In this document: piece after piece, positions 40,780 to 47,403 of the stretch
Layout: every line of letters starts with the position of its first letter
How positions within the stretch are numbered: position 1 is the stretch's first letter
Source: Chthonomonadales bacterium
GTDB taxonomy: Bacteria > Armatimonadota > Chthonomonadetes > Chthonomonadales > CAJBBX01
Reading direction: 5' to 3'
Length of the DNA stretch: 64,000 bases
Assembly: GCA_020849275.1 (NCBI GenBank)
Contig: JADLGO010000067.1
Coordinates: 62,001-126,000 of the forward strand
Translations under genes and position numbers: made by a program
Notes under the pieces: generated by a model
The model's database searches: none
Told to the model about the DNA's origin: nothing
Seen by the model: the letters and a program-made list of their open reading frames with translations, nothing else

Positions 40780-42462
40780 CTACCCGCCGCCGGCCCGGAC
40801 CCACGCCATCCACGCGCGCTCCCCGTCCGCCGGTCGACCGATGGAGGTCCCGGAACGCCGCGAGAGCAGACGCAGTCCCTCCGCTCGCGGCGCGCCGCGC
40901 CTCAGGATGACCGTGTCGCGGCCAAGCGCCACGATGCCGTATGCCGGGCTCCGCAGTACGGCGATGGCGCACCGATGGTAGAGGTCAACCGATGCCGGGA
41001 AGAGCGTGGTGGCGGGGCAGAGGGCCACGTACTCCACGGGCGCCGCCGCGACGGCCTCATCGAGCGCGTCCTCCGAGCACGGAGCGTAGTCCTCCCCCTG
41101 CATCTGGCGCAGCGCCTGCGCCCCGGGCCCGGTGGCGACGCGGTGGAAGGGGTTCGGGAACGCGTGGATCGCGCGGCGATGCGCCAGGTGAGCCGCGATA
41201 GCCGCTTGCGCGCTCACGGAAGCAGTGGGCGGGATGGCGGCGAGCAGCGCGCGCGTCTCGTTCGCCCCGGCGGCGGTGAGGCCCGGCGGCCGCCAACCGC
41301 GAGTCAGGAGCGGCCCTCGCGCCGCGCCCTGCCCCACACAGACGACCAGGAAGGCGAGCGCGAGGCCCGTGGTGAAGCGGTTACCCCAGCGCCGCCAGCG
41401 GGCGAAGCCGAGCACGGAGGCTGCGAGCACAAACGGCGTGACGAGCGCGGTGTACTGGTACTGGATGCTGTGCATCACGCGGCGCTCGCTCAGCAGGTTG
41501 AGGAGCAGCGGCGGAACGGCGGGCAACAGCGCGCCAGGCGCGAGCAGCGGCAGGGCGAGCACGGGACGCAGCGTGTCCGCGAGGTACTCGCGGTTGGCGC
41601 CGCTGTCCAGGTCGGCCACCGTGGCGAGCGGTTGCGTCGCCACGTGACGGGCTACCGACCCGGGCGAGCCGCCGTACCGCGAGTAGACGGCGAAGTAGGG
41701 CGAGGGCCCGCCGTTCATCCGCGTGGTCGTCGCCATCGCGACGGTGAGAGCCGCGACTCCGACGGCCAGCGTCCGCCAGCCTGCCTGGCGATCCACCGCG
41801 AGCGCGAAAGGCGCGAGCGCCACGATGCTCAGGCCCACGGTTTCCTTCGTGAGCGCCGCCAGCACTAGGTACGCCAGATAGGCGCGCCGGCGACGGGAGA
41901 GAAGGCAGGCGAGCGCGGCGAGGAGCGCCGGAACAGCCAGCATCTCCGCGTGGAACTCGAAGAGCGCGGTCCACTGCACTGCCGGATAGAGCAGGTAGGC
42001 CAGCCCGAAGACCAACCCGAGCGGCGCCGAGGCCGTCGCGCGGCTGGCCAGCGCATATACCGGCGCGGCGCCGGCCGCCAGCGCGACGACCTGCAAAGCG
42101 AGGAGCGCCCTCGCGTCCGGCCAGACCGGGTAGAGCGGGGCGATCAGGTAGAGGACGGGGCTGAAGTGGTCGGCTAGTATGTGCAGGCCCCGCACCGTGA
42201 CGAGGGCCGTTTGGCCGTGACTGATCAGCCAGGTGGCCTGGTCGAAGATGGCCAGGTCATAGACGAGCAGCCCGAAACGACCGTAGAGCTGCCACGACTG
42301 CGATGCAAACACGCTCGCCCACGCGACCATGGCGAGCCCGACGGCCGCAGCGCACAGCCGTTCGACGCGCGCCGCCGGAGGCGAGCCCGCCATGGGAGCG
42401 CCGGGCCACTCCGACCCACCCGCGTCCACGCCGGTGGACGGCCGGGACTGATGGGTCCTCAC
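40780..42462 (-). CDS. DUF2079 polytopic membrane protein
   Basis: A 560-residue membrane protein of the DUF2079 family, with about ten hydrophobic segments and the family-like stretch YDLAIFDQATWLISHGQTAL near the N-terminus. These proteins are distantly related to GT-C glycosyltransferases or mannosyltransferases, with Asp/His residues in the first loop (LHILADHFSPVLYLIAPLY). The GTG start overlaps the stop of the DUF4367 gene (GTGA), so it is the last gene of the four-gene operon with the Cys-rich and DUF1573 proteins. Donor and acceptor are unknown. Confidence 0.83.
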   Translation of the reverse strand: MRTHQSRPSTGVDAGGSEWPGAPMAGSPPAARVERLCAAAVGLAMVAWASVFASQSWQLYGRFGLLVYDLAIFDQATWLISHGQTALVTVRGLHILADHFSPVLYLIAPLYPVWPDARALLALQVVALAAGAAPVYALASRATASAPLGLVFGLAYLLYPAVQWTALFEFHAEMLAVPALLAALACLLSRRRRAYLAYLVLAALTKETVGLSIVALAPFALAVDRQAGWRTLAVGVAALTVAMATTTRMNGGPSPYFAVYSRYGGSPGSVARHVATQPLATVADLDSGANREYLADTLRPVLALPLLAPGALLPAVPPLLLNLLSERRVMHSIQYQYTALVTPFVLAASVLGFARWRRWGNRFTTGLALAFLVVCVGQGAARGPLLTRGWRPPGLTAAGANETRALLAAIPPTASVSAQAAIAAHLAHRRAIHAFPNPFHRVATGPGAQALRQMQGEDYAPCSEDALDEAVAAAPVEYVALCPATTLFPASVDLYHRCAIAVLRSPAYGIVALGRDTVILRRGAPRAEGLRLLSRRSGTSIGRPADGERAWMAWVRAGGG

Positions 42463-43391
42463 CCCTCGCCGTACGGCCGTAGCGAGCGAATGAGCCGCAC
42501 CGCCTCCTCCTGGCTGATGGCCTTGCCGTGGTTGTTCAGCCAGAAGTGAACACGATCGCCCTTAAGCCACACGGCGCCGGGGGCGTCCGGCGCCCCGGAG
42601 AACCAGACCTCCTGCCCGGCGACATCCACGCGGCGCGCCCCTGCCGCGCCTATGCTCATGGCGGGCTCCTCGTCGTCGTTCACCTCGCTCTCGATCAGCA
42701 CGCACTGTCGCCCGCGCACCTGCATCAGCACGGCCGCCTGCTTGTGGTGCTTCCGCGGCCGCGGAGCGGTCGGCGTCTCCGGGTAGAGATAGGGCCCTTG
42801 CTCGGCAAGAAGGTAGGTGCGCACCCGGCCCCAGGAGTCGCGAACCGTCAGGCGCAGCGGAGGGGCATGGCGCGTCGCGCTCGTGACGGCGGCTTCCGCG
42901 GACCCGGTGGCCGCCCCCTTGGTGATCGACCTGACGTCCTTGCCGTCGACGGCGAGCAGAGTGAAGAGCGTGCCCACGGGCATGCCCGCGCGCGCGGCCG
43001 GTGTCTCGCGGCCGGCGAACACCATCAACCGGCCCTCGAGGCTGCCGATCGCGATGCCGTAACCATGCCGCGTGCGTTGGATGCGCCGGATGGCGTCGGG
43101 GTCCGTCCGACGCCCCGAGCCCCGCGCCCGGGAGACCTCCTGCACCCGGTTCACCACCACGCCCGTCACGCGGCCATCGGCCGGCAACTCGGTGGGGACG
43201 TAGATCGGGAAGGGCACCTCCTCCTGCGCCCGGGCAATGCTCAACACGGGCGGCCCTTCACTGGCCGGCGGGGTGAGCCGCTGTCGGACCCATGGCCAGA
43301 GGACGACCACGCCACCTCCCACCAGCATCGCGCCCGTCAGCAACAAGGGGCGCGTCCAGCGCCGCATGGTCACCCGTAACTGCTCAGCCAT
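42459..43391 (-). CDS. Membrane-anchored DUF4367 protein with inserted PDZ-like segment
   Basis: A 310-residue protein. A membrane helix (about 16-33, PLLLTGAMLVGGGVVVLW) is followed by VPFPIYVPTELPADGRVTGV, the opening of the DUF4367/RseB-like fold. A PDZ-like stretch lies in the middle (TPAARAGMPVGTLFTLLAVD, about 130-165). The C-terminal AVWLKGDRVHFWLNNHGKAI with SQEEAVRLIRSL closes DUF4367. DUF4367 proteins often serve in signalling or anti-sigma roles. The start ATG 43391 overlaps the end of the DUF1573 gene by eight bases. Confidence 0.72.
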   Translation of the reverse strand: MAEQLRVTMRRWTRPLLLTGAMLVGGGVVVLWPWVRQRLTPPASEGPPVLSIARAQEEVPFPIYVPTELPADGRVTGVVVNRVQEVSRARGSGRRTDPDAIRRIQRTRHGYGIAIGSLEGRLMVFAGRETPAARAGMPVGTLFTLLAVDGKDVRSITKGAATGSAEAAVTSATRHAPPLRLTVRDSWGRVRTYLLAEQGPYLYPETPTAPRPRKHHKQAAVLMQVRGRQCVLIESEVNDDEEPAMSIGAAGARRVDVAGQEVWFSGAPDAPGAVWLKGDRVHFWLNNHGKAISQEEAVRLIRSLRPYGEG

Positions 43392-43842
43392 CCCCTTCCC
43401 CCGCGCGCCTGGCAGCCTCCGGCGCAAACCGCACAGAGAGGGTCACATGCTGGCGACCGCCGGCGCCCTCATCCGTCTCGACCATTACCTCCTTGCGAAC
43501 AACCGGGACACGGGAGACCGGCTGGACGATAACATCGATGCGCCTGCGTTCGCCAGGGGCAAGAGTCATCGACCCGATGACCTTCACCTCACAGCCTCAC
43601 CCAGCGCCGGCATGGAGGATTCGGACGGCCGAGCGCCCGACGTTGCGCGCCCACAGCGTCACGCCAGCCGGTCGCCGGTGCGGGACCACAACCGGTCCGG
43701 ATGGCGAGGTCAGAACGATCCGCCCCGCCAGCCAACGGGCGCGCGCGCTCGACGCGCCGATGACGCACAGCGCACCAAGACCGAGGGCGGCAAACAACTC
43801 AAGCGGCCTAACGGGGGGGGACAGGCCGCACCCAACGAGCAT
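43384..43842 (-). CDS. DUF1573 Ig-like protein with in-frame UGA at the first Cys of CGC (candidate selenoprotein or pseudogene)
   Basis: One frame of 153 codons is interrupted only by TGA at 43599-43597. With UGA read as an amino acid (U) it gives 152 residues: a membrane helix (about 14-32), then a DUF1573/ASH-like Ig fold with ARNVGRSAVRILHAGAG, U-Gly-Cys-Glu-Val, SMTLAPGERRRIDVIVQ and a final strand HVTLSVRFAP. Family members usually have SCGC at this place, so UGA replaces the first Cys. A SECIS-like hairpin follows. Against recoding, the best Shine-Dalgarno (AGGAGG, 7-base spacing) serves ATG 43849, whose frame is broken by a C8 tract. It sits between the Cys-rich and DUF4367 genes. Confidence 0.6.
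43558..43588 (-). promoter_or_regulatory. SECIS-like hairpin downstream of in-frame UGA
   Basis: Core stem GUCAUCG/CGAUGAC, seven perfect pairs, with loop GGU (43581-43565). A lower stem GGUGA/UUGCC extends it through one A-C mismatch and one G-U pair. The loop begins 22 nt after the UGA and its first base is G. These values fall within the published bacterial SECIS pattern (loop 16-37 nt from UGA, G among the first two loop bases). It lies wholly in the reading frame, as bacterial elements do. Confidence 0.5.
43813..43820 (-). repeat. C8 homopolymer at the start of the DUF1573 gene
   Basis: Eight C on the minus strand within the first codons. With seven C, the well-placed ATG 43849 reads MTDARWVRPVPPVRPLELF into the DUF1573 frame. 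With eight, that start ends at a TAG and only ATG 43842 (Shine-Dalgarno 14 bases away) enters the frame. Confidence 0.6.
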
Positions 43843-43927: not shown

Positions 43928-44287
43928 CTATGCCCAGAGCGGACACCAGATGCACGCCTCGGTCGGCCCAAGGTGCTCAAACTGAGTACTGAAGTAGCTG
44001 CAGTTCTGGTACCTGTAGCACTTGTAGATGCTCGTCTGATCCAGCAGCCGGTAGTGTACCGGTACCCCCTGTGGGTCGTAGCCGCAGACGTCATCAGTGG
44101 GAATCCCCGGTTGCGTGCAACGAAAGCAGCAATAGCAGCAGACGGGAGGTACGCAACCATAGCCCGTCGCGGGGCAGGAGCCCTGTGTGGCGCAGTAGCC
44201 GCCGCAGTCGAGAGCCCCGGCGGCGTCCAGCCAGGCAACCAACGCCACAAACGAGAGCGCAGCGACGACCCACCGGAGCCCCTTCAT
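43928..44287 (-). CDS. Small secreted Cys-rich protein
   Basis: A 119-residue protein with a signal peptide (MKGLRWVVAALSFVALVAWL, cut near DAAGA). The mature part of about 92 residues has 14 Cys: CGGYC, GSC, GYGC, CCYCCFRC, VC, KC, NC, AC and WC. An even count suggests up to seven disulfides or metal binding. I recognise no family. ATG 44287 follows AGGAG at good spacing. It is the first gene of the predicted operon with DUF1573, DUF4367 and DUF2079. A lux-box-like palindrome and a promoter lie about 110-165 bases upstream. Confidence 0.72.
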   Translation of the reverse strand: MKGLRWVVAALSFVALVAWLDAAGALDCGGYCATQGSCPATGYGCVPPVCCYCCFRCTQPGIPTDDVCGYDPQGVPVHYRLLDQTSIYKCYRYQNCSYFSTQFEHLGPTEACIWCPLWA

Positions 44288-44768
44288 CGCCCGTTCTCCT
44301 ACCTGCCAGACCAGTGGCAAACGCGCGCACCCTCCAGGAACCGACTGGTGCCGCGGAGCGCCACCGCCCGCCCACGCGAACGGAACTCCGCGGCGATCGC
44401 CGCCAGTATACGCCGCACGGGCAGCCCGCGCAATACCACGATCGTGGTATCTTGCGGCGGGCCCGCGGGGAACGAGCGGGAGGTGCTCGCAGCGGCGGGC
44501 CGCGCGCACCAGGGACGCCGCCTGTTCCGGCCGCGCCGTCAGCGTCGCTCGTCCGTAGCCAACCGTGCCGCAGCGCGAGGAGCACAGCGGCGAACCGGGA
44601 GTGCGTGGAGGTGACCTCAAGGATGCGGCGCCACTCGGTGTGGACGGTGGCAGGCGACACGCAAAGGCACTCGGCGAGCGCACGGTCCGACGTGTCGCCC
44701 ATCGCGATGCTCGTCAGCATCAGGCGACGAAGAGAGGGGCTCAGCGGGCAGCCCTCGTCGGCAGCCAT
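44094..44768 (-). CDS. LuxR-type HTH transcriptional regulator (3' end uncertain)
   Basis: Residues 1-80 are a clear LuxR/GerE helix-turn-helix: DRALAECLCVSPATVHTEWR then RILEVTSTHSRFAAVLLALR. The ATG at 44768 follows GAGG. There is no receiver or ligand domain. The frame has no stop until 44094, so the 224-residue ORF would run through a palindrome, a promoter and the first 194 bases of the Cys-rich gene. That C-terminal part is Arg/Ser-rich and does not look coding. The true end is probably soon after 44528, implying a lost stop, a frameshift or a sequence error. Confidence 0.6.
   Translation of the reverse strand: MAADEGCPLSPSLRRLMLTSIAMGDTSDRALAECLCVSPATVHTEWRRILEVTSTHSRFAAVLLALRHGWLRTSDADGAAGTGGVPGARGPPLRAPPARSPRARRKIPRSWYCAGCPCGVYWRRSPRSSVRVGGRWRSAAPVGSWRVRAFATGLAGRRTGDEGAPVGRRCALVCGVGCLAGRRRGSRLRRLLRHTGLLPRDGLWLRTSRLLLLLLSLHATGDSH
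44405..44433 (-). promoter_or_regulatory. Predicted promoter of the Cys-rich/DUF1573 operon
   Basis: Minus strand: -35 TTGCGC (44433-44428, only three of six), 17-base spacer, -10 TATACT (44410-44405, five of six). Transcription would start near 44398, giving a leader of about 110 nt. A poor -35 next to an upstream palindrome is the design of an activator-dependent promoter. Confidence 0.5.
44433..44450. promoter_or_regulatory. 18-bp perfect palindrome, lux-box-like operator
   Basis: ATACCACGATCGTGGTAT reads the same on both strands. Flanking GC-rich arms (GCCCGCGCAA against TTGCGGCGGGC, one base inserted) extend the symmetry to about 40 bp. Its centre (44441.5) is about -43 from the predicted start of the operon promoter and touches the -35 box, the position used by LuxR-type activators at class II promoters. 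The HTH gene is immediately upstream. Confidence 0.6.
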
Positions 44769-45028
44769 GGGGAACCTCGCTCTCGGGCGGCGTTCGGGAC
44801 GCACCGAGGGATGAGCGCCGCGGCCGCGCAATGGGAACCCGCCGGCGGCACGAACCGGCGGAGCGGCTCGACCGGGCACGCACACGGTGAGGTCCGCGCG
44901 CCGCGCTCGCGCCCGCTACTCTTCAGTACGCGTTCAGGCGCCAGATCGGCGCGCAAGGAGGCGCCGCATCTTCCGGTAGCCGCGGCGAATTCGACGCCGC
45001 GCCAGCGTCCTCTAAAGTGAGGGGAGCC
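44769..45028. other. Divergent intergenic region, LuxR-type and ECF sigma genes
   Basis: About 260 bp between the two divergent regulators. It is GC-rich, with a small inverted repeat around 44846-44868 (CCGCCGG...CCGGCGG). I find no convincing sigma-70 promoter or coding sequence. Confidence 0.4.
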
Positions 45029-45580
45029 TTGACGCCCGACAGTGCCGGCCACCACGAGCGAAGACTCGTCGAGCGGTTCCGACAGGGCGACCGCCACGCG
45101 CTCGCCACGCTCTTCGAGGCGCACGTCGACCGCGTGTACGCCTACGCCCACCACGTGCTGGGGTGCCGCGAGGACGCGGAGGAGGTTGCGTCCGAGGCTT
45201 TCCTGCGGGCCTTCCGCCGGGCCGCCGACTTCCGCGGCGACTGCCCGTTCCTGCCCTGGGTGATCGCCATCGCGCGCAACCTCTGCCGCGACCGCTTGCG
45301 GCAGCCGCGCCTGCTCATCCTGCCCGCAACGGGAGAGGAGCCCGGCGGAGAGGACTGGCCCCTGCGCGCGGAGATGGCCGCCGACGTGCGCGCCGCGCTC
45401 GCCGAGTTGCCCGACGACCAGCGCGACGCGCTCATCCTCTGCGACGCCGACGGCTGGGACGCCGCCGAGGCCGCTCCGGCCCTGGAGCGCTCGCCCTCCG
45501 CGACACGCTCGCTGCTCTACCGGGCCCGCCGCGCCCTGCGCGCCCGGCTCGCAGTACGATGGAAGGACGCGGAGCGATGA
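45029..45580 (+). CDS. ECF sigma factor
   Basis: A 183-residue sigma-70 family factor. Region 2 is seen in VERFRQGDRHALATLFEAHV, CREDAEEVASEAFLRAFR and FLPWVIAIARNLCRDRLRQP. Region 4 is seen in AALAELPDDQRDALILCDAD, then AAPALERSPSATRSLLYRAR, the HTH for the -35 element. I favour TTG 45029, preceded at good spacing by AGGGGA; GTG 45017 (four residues longer) has no site. The stop overlaps the start of the anti-sigma gene (ATGA). Its target promoters are unknown. Confidence 0.88.
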   Translation: MTPDSAGHHERRLVERFRQGDRHALATLFEAHVDRVYAYAHHVLGCREDAEEVASEAFLRAFRRAADFRGDCPFLPWVIAIARNLCRDRLRQPRLLILPATGEEPGGEDWPLRAEMAADVRAALAELPDDQRDALILCDADGWDAAEAAPALERSPSATRSLLYRARRALRARLAVRWKDAER

Positions 45581-45882
45581 CGTGTCTGCACGCCGCCGAC
45601 CTGCTCGATGCCTACCTGGACCTGGCGCTCGCCGAGGAGGCCAATGCGCGCGTGGAGCACCATCTGCTCGCCTGCGCCGGCTGCGCCGCCGAGGCCGCGT
45701 CGCTCCAGCAGACGCGCGCGCACCTGCGCGGCTCCCTTGGCGAGCCGGTCCCGTCGCCGGCTTTCGTTGAGCGGTTGGGCGCGCGCCTGCTAGACGCCTT
45801 CGCCGAGACGCTCCAGCCCGAGCCGGGAAGTCGCCGCCTGCAGCGCGTGCTACCGGGCCTCCTCGCGGAGCCCGAGGAATGA
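45577..45882 (+). CDS. Zinc-finger anti-sigma factor
   Basis: A 101-residue protein beginning MTCLHAADLLDAYLDLALAE, with the zinc-binding anti-sigma signature HxxxCxxC in VEHHLLACAGCAAEAASL. It lacks a membrane segment, so it is a soluble ZAS-type factor. Its ATG overlaps the sigma stop, as usual for cognate pairs. It presumably sequesters the upstream sigma factor until a redox, zinc or other signal releases it. The C-terminal half is of unknown role. Confidence 0.85.
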   Translation: MTCLHAADLLDAYLDLALAEEANARVEHHLLACAGCAAEAASLQQTRAHLRGSLGEPVPSPAFVERLGARLLDAFAETLQPEPGSRRLQRVLPGLLAEPEE

Positions 45883-45937
45883 GCGCGCGACACGCGCCTG
45901 TCTTGCATTGAGAACATATTCCGACTGGAGGTTCGCC

Positions 45938-47089
45938 ATGGACACGTCGCCGACTGCCGCCGAGCCCACCCTGAAGGCCACCTGCGCGCGCAAGGACCTC
46001 TTCGATGGTGTCCAGACCGTTGCGCACGCGGTGAGCGGCCGCAGCGCCCTCCCCATCCTGAGCCACGTGCTGGTCCAGGCCGAGGAAGGCGGGCTGCGCC
46101 TGAGCGCCACCGACCTTCAGCTGAGCATCGCGCTCAGCATCCCGGCCACCGTGGAGGAACCTGGCGCCCTCACAGCGACCGCCCGCGTTCTAACGGAACT
46201 GCTGGGCACGCTTCCGGAGTCGGAGGTCGCAATCTCGGTGGACCGCAGCCACGCCGTGCGCCTCCATTGCGATCGCTCGGACTACAAGCTCCTCGGCCTT
46301 CCGCCCGAGGAGTACCCGAGGCTGCCCGAGGTCCAGGAAGCCAACTCCTTCCGTCTTCCGCAGGCCCGCCTGCGCAGCATGATCCGGGACACGGTCTTCG
46401 CCGTCTCCACCGACGAGGCCCGACCCATCCTGACTGGTGTGCTGATGGACTTCGCCGACAACTCGGTGCGGTTCGTGGCAACCGACACGCACCGCCTGGC
46501 GATGCGCCAGGCGCCGGTGCAGAACGGCCAGGGCGCCCAGGCCGCCATCGTGCCCGCCCGCGCCATGAACGAGCTGCAGCGCCTGCTCACCGGCGATGAG
46601 GGCGACGTCCACGTGCGGCTCTCGGGCAATCAGGTGATGTTCGCCACGCCGGGCGGCGCCGGCGTGGTCTCCCGCCTCATCGAGGGGCAGTTCCCCAACT
46701 ACCAGCGCGTCATCCCCTCCGCCCATCGCACGCGCCTGACGCTGGAGACCCAGCCGATGCTCCGGGCGGTGCGCCGCGCCTCCATCGTCGCCCGAGGCTC
46801 GCTCGACCGCGTCGTTCTACGCACCCTGGACGACCGCCTGACGATTACGGCCGAGTCGAGTGCAGAAGGTAACGCCTACGAGGAGGTCGAGGTGGCCCGC
46901 GAGGGCGACGACGTGCAGATCGCTTTCAACGCGAAGTACCTGCTGGACGTGCTGGGCGTTCTGGATGAGGAGGGGTTCCGGCTGGATGTGACCGAACCGC
47001 TCAAGCCAGGCATCGTACGTCCGGTGCCCTCGGAGGAGGTTGCCGGAGACGAGTACCTGTGCGTCCTGATGCCGATGCAGATCGTCTAG
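45938..47089 (+). CDS. dnaN: DNA polymerase III beta subunit (sliding clamp)
   Basis: A 383-residue clamp with the three-domain repeat typical of DnaN. Conserved runs are AVSGRSALPILSHVLVQAEE, VRFVATDTHRLAMRQ, RLIEGQFPNYQRVIPS and the C-terminal YLCVLMPMQIV, which forms part of the protein-binding cleft (normally MPMRL). Length is slightly over the usual 366-380. ATG 45938 follows TGGAGG. It is not next to dnaA, recF or gyrB; instead an ECF sigma pair precedes it, so it could be the relocated only copy or a second one. A 34-bp perfect palindrome follows. Confidence 0.94.
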   Translation: MDTSPTAAEPTLKATCARKDLFDGVQTVAHAVSGRSALPILSHVLVQAEEGGLRLSATDLQLSIALSIPATVEEPGALTATARVLTELLGTLPESEVAISVDRSHAVRLHCDRSDYKLLGLPPEEYPRLPEVQEANSFRLPQARLRSMIRDTVFAVSTDEARPILTGVLMDFADNSVRFVATDTHRLAMRQAPVQNGQGAQAAIVPARAMNELQRLLTGDEGDVHVRLSGNQVMFATPGGAGVVSRLIEGQFPNYQRVIPSAHRTRLTLETQPMLRAVRRASIVARGSLDRVVLRTLDDRLTITAESSAEGNAYEEVEVAREGDDVQIAFNAKYLLDVLGVLDEEGFRLDVTEPLKPGIVRPVPSEEVAGDEYLCVLMPMQIV

Positions 47090-47403
47090 GACGGCGGCGC
47101 GGCGGCGGCCCGGGCCGCCGCCGCGCCGGCCTTGCGCACCCTCCGCTCCCTCGCCGCCCCGCCTGTCAGACCGCTCCCCGGATCACCTCAACGGCCCTCC
47201 GCCAGCCCGTGTTCAAACGCCGGGCGACTGTGGAACAAATCCAACGGACCGTAACTCTACTGATTGTGACCAGGAAGCCGGCGCCGTCTCGTGACGCCGC
47301 TCGGGCGCCGTGGCGGTATGCGCCGGGAACCCGAGGTGCGTACCGATAGGCGCTCCGGGAGCAGTCGGACTACGGCCATGTACGTTCAGGCTGAGGCCCC
47401 GAT
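47090..47403. other. Intergenic region dnaN to STAS gene
   Basis: Contains the dnaN-proximal palindrome (47095-47128). A relatively AT-rich patch (47210-47275) may hold a promoter for the STAS gene, but I find no pair of boxes with good spacing. GGAAC at 47232 resembles an ECF -35 but lacks a clear -10. No coding signal. Confidence 0.45.
47095..47128. terminator. 34-bp perfect palindrome after dnaN
   Basis: CGGCGCGGCGGCGGCCC followed by its exact reverse complement, no loop, starting five bases after the dnaN stop. It would form a very stable hairpin. There is no U-run, so termination is probable but not certain; it may also protect the 3' end. Confidence 0.6.

Follow-up and report, generated by a model that had tools for sequence, protein, structure and literature searches.

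Gene content of the locus

The window (the whole 64,000-nucleotide stretch of DNA that was analysed) carries on its reverse strand a short HTH gene (44541..44768), an 18-bp palindrome, a predicted promoter and a predicted operon of three genes, all in that order. The first gene of the operon (43928..44287, reverse strand), the predicted target of the regulation discussed here, encodes a protein of 119 aa, rich in Cys, with an N-terminus that by eye looks like a signal peptide; it matched no known family and had no relatives in 61 genomes. The third gene (42459..43427, reverse strand) encodes a protein of 322 aa with no family above the cut-off.

The second gene (43384..43842, reverse strand) encodes a DUF1573 protein and is split into two open reading frames, 43842-43600 and 43587-43384, which form a single frame interrupted by an in-frame TGA (43599..43597). 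Reading the TGA as U yields a DUF1573 match (E 7.8e-7) in which the TGA falls on the first Cys of the CGC motif, giving a UGC motif, and a homologue in another genome (G051) has CGC at this position. Because the genome carries tRNA-Sec (70.6 bits) and SelB (350.8 bits), the gene product is probably a selenoprotein, and one of an already known kind: a review already lists DUF1573 selenoproteins with the UGC motif (PMC9312934). About 15 bases past the TGA there is a hairpin whose loop starts with G; its energy is unexceptional (z -1.4).

The HTH gene

The HTH gene encodes a domain of about 76 aa, and homologues of about 75-82 aa occur in many genomes. Its reading frame is considerably longer, running on the reverse strand from 44768 to 44094 without a stop ahead of the palindrome and overlapping the Cys-rich gene. 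The coding-like GC3 of the HTH portion (0.85) and the family domain both stop near 44541-44556, and in the stop-free continuation through the palindrome (44094..44540, reverse strand) GC2 exceeds GC3, so that the extension is probably non-coding; the alternative is that a stop has been lost. Comparable frames were seen elsewhere. The HTH frame runs in-frame into the downstream protein in all three G003 loci and in both G042 C3 loci; read-through frames of this kind look commoner than expected by chance.

Profile matches place the HTH in the GerE/NarL/LuxR superfamily. Searched against the PDB, a seven-member family profile matched ChrA best (1.5e-5), followed by 7x1k (3.3e-5) and the GerE chain 1fse_A (2.4e-4), and DegU-like proteins were also matched. 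Matches of the single window sequence were weak, both to Pfam GerE (E 0.073, below the cut-off) and to PedR in NCBIfam (E 0.07); Pfam GerE is among the families that most members of the HTH family touch, likewise weakly. A single-sequence AlphaFold model of four helices has low confidence (mean pLDDT 59.9) and adds little, and the ranking from a Foldseek search with it (best E 0.046) is not used as evidence. Beyond the HTH, Pfam found no autoinducer-binding, ligand or other domain in the frame, and neither Pfam nor comparison with homologues found a receiver domain in the protein.

The initial annotation had placed a LuxR-type HTH gene directly upstream of the operon on the same strand. Position and strand are as described, with the qualification that the frame is open into the Cys-rich gene, and the LuxR label applies at the level of the superfamily only. 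A quorum-sensing LuxR is not supported, since no ligand-binding domain was found and the profile matches GerE/NarL-type HTHs; judged by its sequence, the gene product belongs to the GerE/NarL/LuxR superfamily as an HTH-only protein. Elsewhere in the same genome the family profile has one further HTH match, a weaker one, and the sole match in a scan of the genome collection with the HTH was an Anaerolinea NarL-type response regulator of different architecture.

The palindrome and its predicted promoter

The palindrome, ATACCACGATCGTGGTAT (44433..44450, strand-symmetric), is exact over its 18 bp and also reads as an inverted repeat of the 7-2-7 form, TACCACG-AT-CGTGGTA. Downstream of it on the reverse strand lie a poor -35 box, TTGCGC (44428..44433), which agrees with TTGACA at 3/6 positions and shares the last base of the palindrome, and, after a 17-bp spacer, a -10 box, TATACT (44405..44410), with a predicted start at about 44398, 7 bases after the -10. 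The distance from the -10 box up to the palindrome centre is 31 bp, and the centre, computed as -(12+d)-0.5 with d this distance, would lie at -43.5 given this inferred start. The perfect palindrome about 43 bases before the predicted start, the good -10 at 17-base spacing and the poor -35 touching the palindrome had all been annotated beforehand, and all are borne out. A predicted site that overlaps a poor -35 is the geometry of a class-II activator-dependent promoter. The consensus promoter scan reported no match at the Cys-rich operon promoter because the -35 is too poor.

We note that the length of the palindrome proves nothing by itself, since a third-order Markov model leads one to expect about 1-2 palindromes with an arm of at least 9 per 64 kb. 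Its composition and placement are more telling: in 60 simulated windows no such palindrome had as many as 5 A/T in each arm, and 44433-44450 is the sole palindrome in the window with an arm of at least 7 that has TANNNT 30-33 bp downstream. Together with a distance from the -10 that is similar among relatives, as described below, this makes it a predicted operator. Two other identities were tried and rejected. An RNA element is not indicated, as an Rfam search of the window matched none and the site has no terminator-like hairpin. The BlaI/MecI-type operator pattern TACNACN4GTNGTA fits the site, and does so once in the window, but the adjoining HTH is GerE-like. A second palindrome, GCGGCGATCGCCGC, lies at 44390-44403, right across the predicted start site.

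It had also been proposed that further copies of the palindrome might define a regulon. A scan of the genome (4.8 Mb in 73 contigs, 99.9% complete) found no further copy at up to 3 mismatches, and a looser pattern gave 43 matches against 89 for a reversed control pattern, that is, fewer than the control. A genome-wide regulon is thereby rejected: the palindrome is private to the Cys-rich operon promoter, as would be expected for a dedicated site.

Comparison across HTH loci

Seventeen loci, the window included, were gathered by HTH similarity alone. In each, the top-scoring -10 box was taken from a set interval downstream of the HTH domain, palindromes being disregarded, and complementary pairs were counted and averaged for each centre 10-60 bases upstream of that box, with 4000 shuffles that preserved local composition. 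Over the 17 loci, inverted-repeat content peaks 31 (31-32) bp upstream of the -10, where the target stretch has a mean of 4.65 of 8 pairs. Five control stretches, one on the reverse strand, one ahead of the HTH, one within it and two farther downstream, gave 2.65-3.06. The maximum of the profile has a shuffle p of 0.00075 for all 17 loci and 0.009 once the window is left out, values to be read with loci that share a genome or genus not being independent. None of the 4000 shuffles matches the better of d = 31 and d = 32 in any subset, even that without the window, G012 and G014, in which the profile maximum alone weakens to p = 0.09. The subsets lacking the window and the first relatives are the fair ones, because the distances 31 and 32 had been read from the window and these relatives before the test.

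The individual sites are diverse. Near-perfect palindromes are found in only two relatives, of the same genus, namely G014 (ATACCTCAATTGAGGTAT) and G012 (ATAATGCAATTGCAGTAT); partial sites occur in G068C16, G068C11, G007, G011 and G003, several relatives other than G012 and G014 score 3-5 of 9, and G042C2, G068C12 and G102C139 have nothing convincing as an inverted repeat. In the printed alignment, the -10 of G010, G030 and G068C16 was picked by eye over the top-scoring box. Half-sites vary among the loci, and so do the genes downstream. Where the window has its Cys-rich secreted protein, labels read from the sequences suggest apparent signal-peptide proteins in G006/G011, G007/G010 (with RCC1-like repeats) and G068C16, YD/Rhs-type repeat proteins and a glycosyltransferase-like protein in G003, a second glycosyltransferase-like protein in G068C11 and a small peptide in G012/G014. 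What the loci appear to share is the unit of HTH, site and promoter, and not the target gene. The -35 is good in some relatives (TTGACA in G007), so not all of them would depend equally on an activator.

Since relatives in the phylum carry a similar site, at an equal distance from the promoter and after a regulator gene of the same kind, the neighbouring HTH protein is the likely binder, and the palindrome is most likely its docking site. The candidacy of this protein, raised in the initial annotation on its position alongside the palindrome, is thus strengthened by the relatives. The LuxR-type activation geometry annotated with it survives in part: the site at about -43 and the weak -35 stand, and the inverted repeat keeps its distance from the -10 in relatives, but neither a strict lux box nor a quorum-sensing LuxR is supported for a protein in which no ligand domain was found and whose profile matches GerE/NarL-type HTHs.

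Relation to known systems

Three characterized systems invite comparison. The lux box sits at -42.5, an activation position (PMC4471428, PMC3376562), and the window resembles it in having an inverted repeat near -42.5, overlapping a weak -35, with the gene of the putative activator adjoining. The lux box is 20 bp long, whereas the window palindrome is 18 bp, at about -43.5 from an inferred start. LuxR has an autoinducer-binding domain that the window protein lacks, and nothing here points to quorum sensing.

For NarL, one 7-2-7 site placed at -44.5, 32 bp ahead of the -10, is enough for induction (PMC9314961). The window site resembles those of NarL/NarP in having two inverted 7-bp elements 2 bp apart and a centre 31 bp from the -10 as against 32 for NarL, and TACCACG-AT-CGTGGTA has the form and placement of a NarL-type site (7-2-7, near 32 bp upstream of the -10). 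NarL differs in being a phosphorylated two-component regulator, the window protein having no receiver domain. Against what we take to be the NarL heptamer consensus, TACYYMT, the window element TACCACG scores 5/7 and the G014 element TACCTCA 6/7; half-sites in several other relatives are unlike it.

GerE of Bacillus subtilis and PedR are like the window protein in consisting of about 75 aa of HTH alone, with neither a ligand nor a receiver domain. GerE, however, controls many unlinked genes, whereas the window has one single-copy site beside the regulator gene. On these comparisons of sequence, the window site agrees equally well with a NarL/GerE 7-2-7 box and with a lux box.

A proposed dedicated operator and its alternatives

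We propose, with a probability of about 0.68, that the upstream HTH-only protein has the palindrome as its dedicated operator and would activate the Cys-rich operon promoter from about -43. A dimer of the HTH protein would bind the inverted repeat next to RNA polymerase and contact it, compensating for the poor -35 in a class-II-type activation and switching on the operon of the Cys-rich secreted protein. As the HTH protein has no sensory domain, its amount is likely to be its control. Regulator, operator and target would form one compact cassette, and homologous cassettes, with diverged half-sites and different targets, would be present in other genomes of the phylum.

The same protein might instead bind the palindrome and repress, covering the -35 region. 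GerE/NarL-type proteins can repress from sites that overlap promoters, and the palindrome touches the -35, which in some relatives, such as G007, is complete; yet the poor -35 of the window leaves little to repress, and members of the superfamily are known to activate from a centre 31-32 bp upstream of the -10. We regard repression as unlikely. Slightly more improbable is that the palindrome serves another regulator encoded elsewhere, for example a NarL-type response regulator, the adjoining HTH being coincidental. The second, weaker profile match in the genome could be such a regulator, and 7-2-7 sites do serve other NarL-type regulators, but the 4.8 Mb offer no second copy of the site at up to 3 mismatches, and in other genomes the inverted repeats sit downstream of HTH homologues and are absent from the control regions. 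Least probable is that the palindrome is a functionless chance feature of a GC-rich stretch with several open frames: reading frames cross it and its length is to be expected in a window of this size, but not its A/T content, nor its unique placement ahead of a TANNNT, nor a position kept in relatives to a degree that is significant without the window.

Returning to the dedicated operator, were this reading true, it would reveal, in a phylum that has been little studied, a compact activator cassette of one gene and one site, supply naturally diverged regulator/operator pairs for reading the recognition code of GerE-type HTHs, and offer a way of learning when two proteins are produced, the uncharacterised secreted Cys-rich protein and the probable DUF1573 selenoprotein. 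We would also raise, tentatively and with more doubt than confidence, the broader idea that the phylum harbours an undescribed, fast-evolving class of self-contained switches, each comprising an HTH-only regulator, a private operator directly downstream and one adjacent, often surface or secreted, target. Regulator and half-site would change in step with each other. The regulator frame continues stop-free into the target in some genomes (G003, G042).

Upstream neighbourhood

Upstream of the HTH gene and divergent from it, an ECF sigma factor gene is followed by a zinc-finger anti-sigma-like gene (45017-45882, forward strand; Sigma70_r2/r4_2 and zf-HC2), and this sigma factor could drive the HTH gene. 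Beside the pair lies a gene (45908-47089) that we take to be dnaN-like, directly followed by a 34-bp perfect palindrome of G and C only (47095-47128), possibly a terminator stem.
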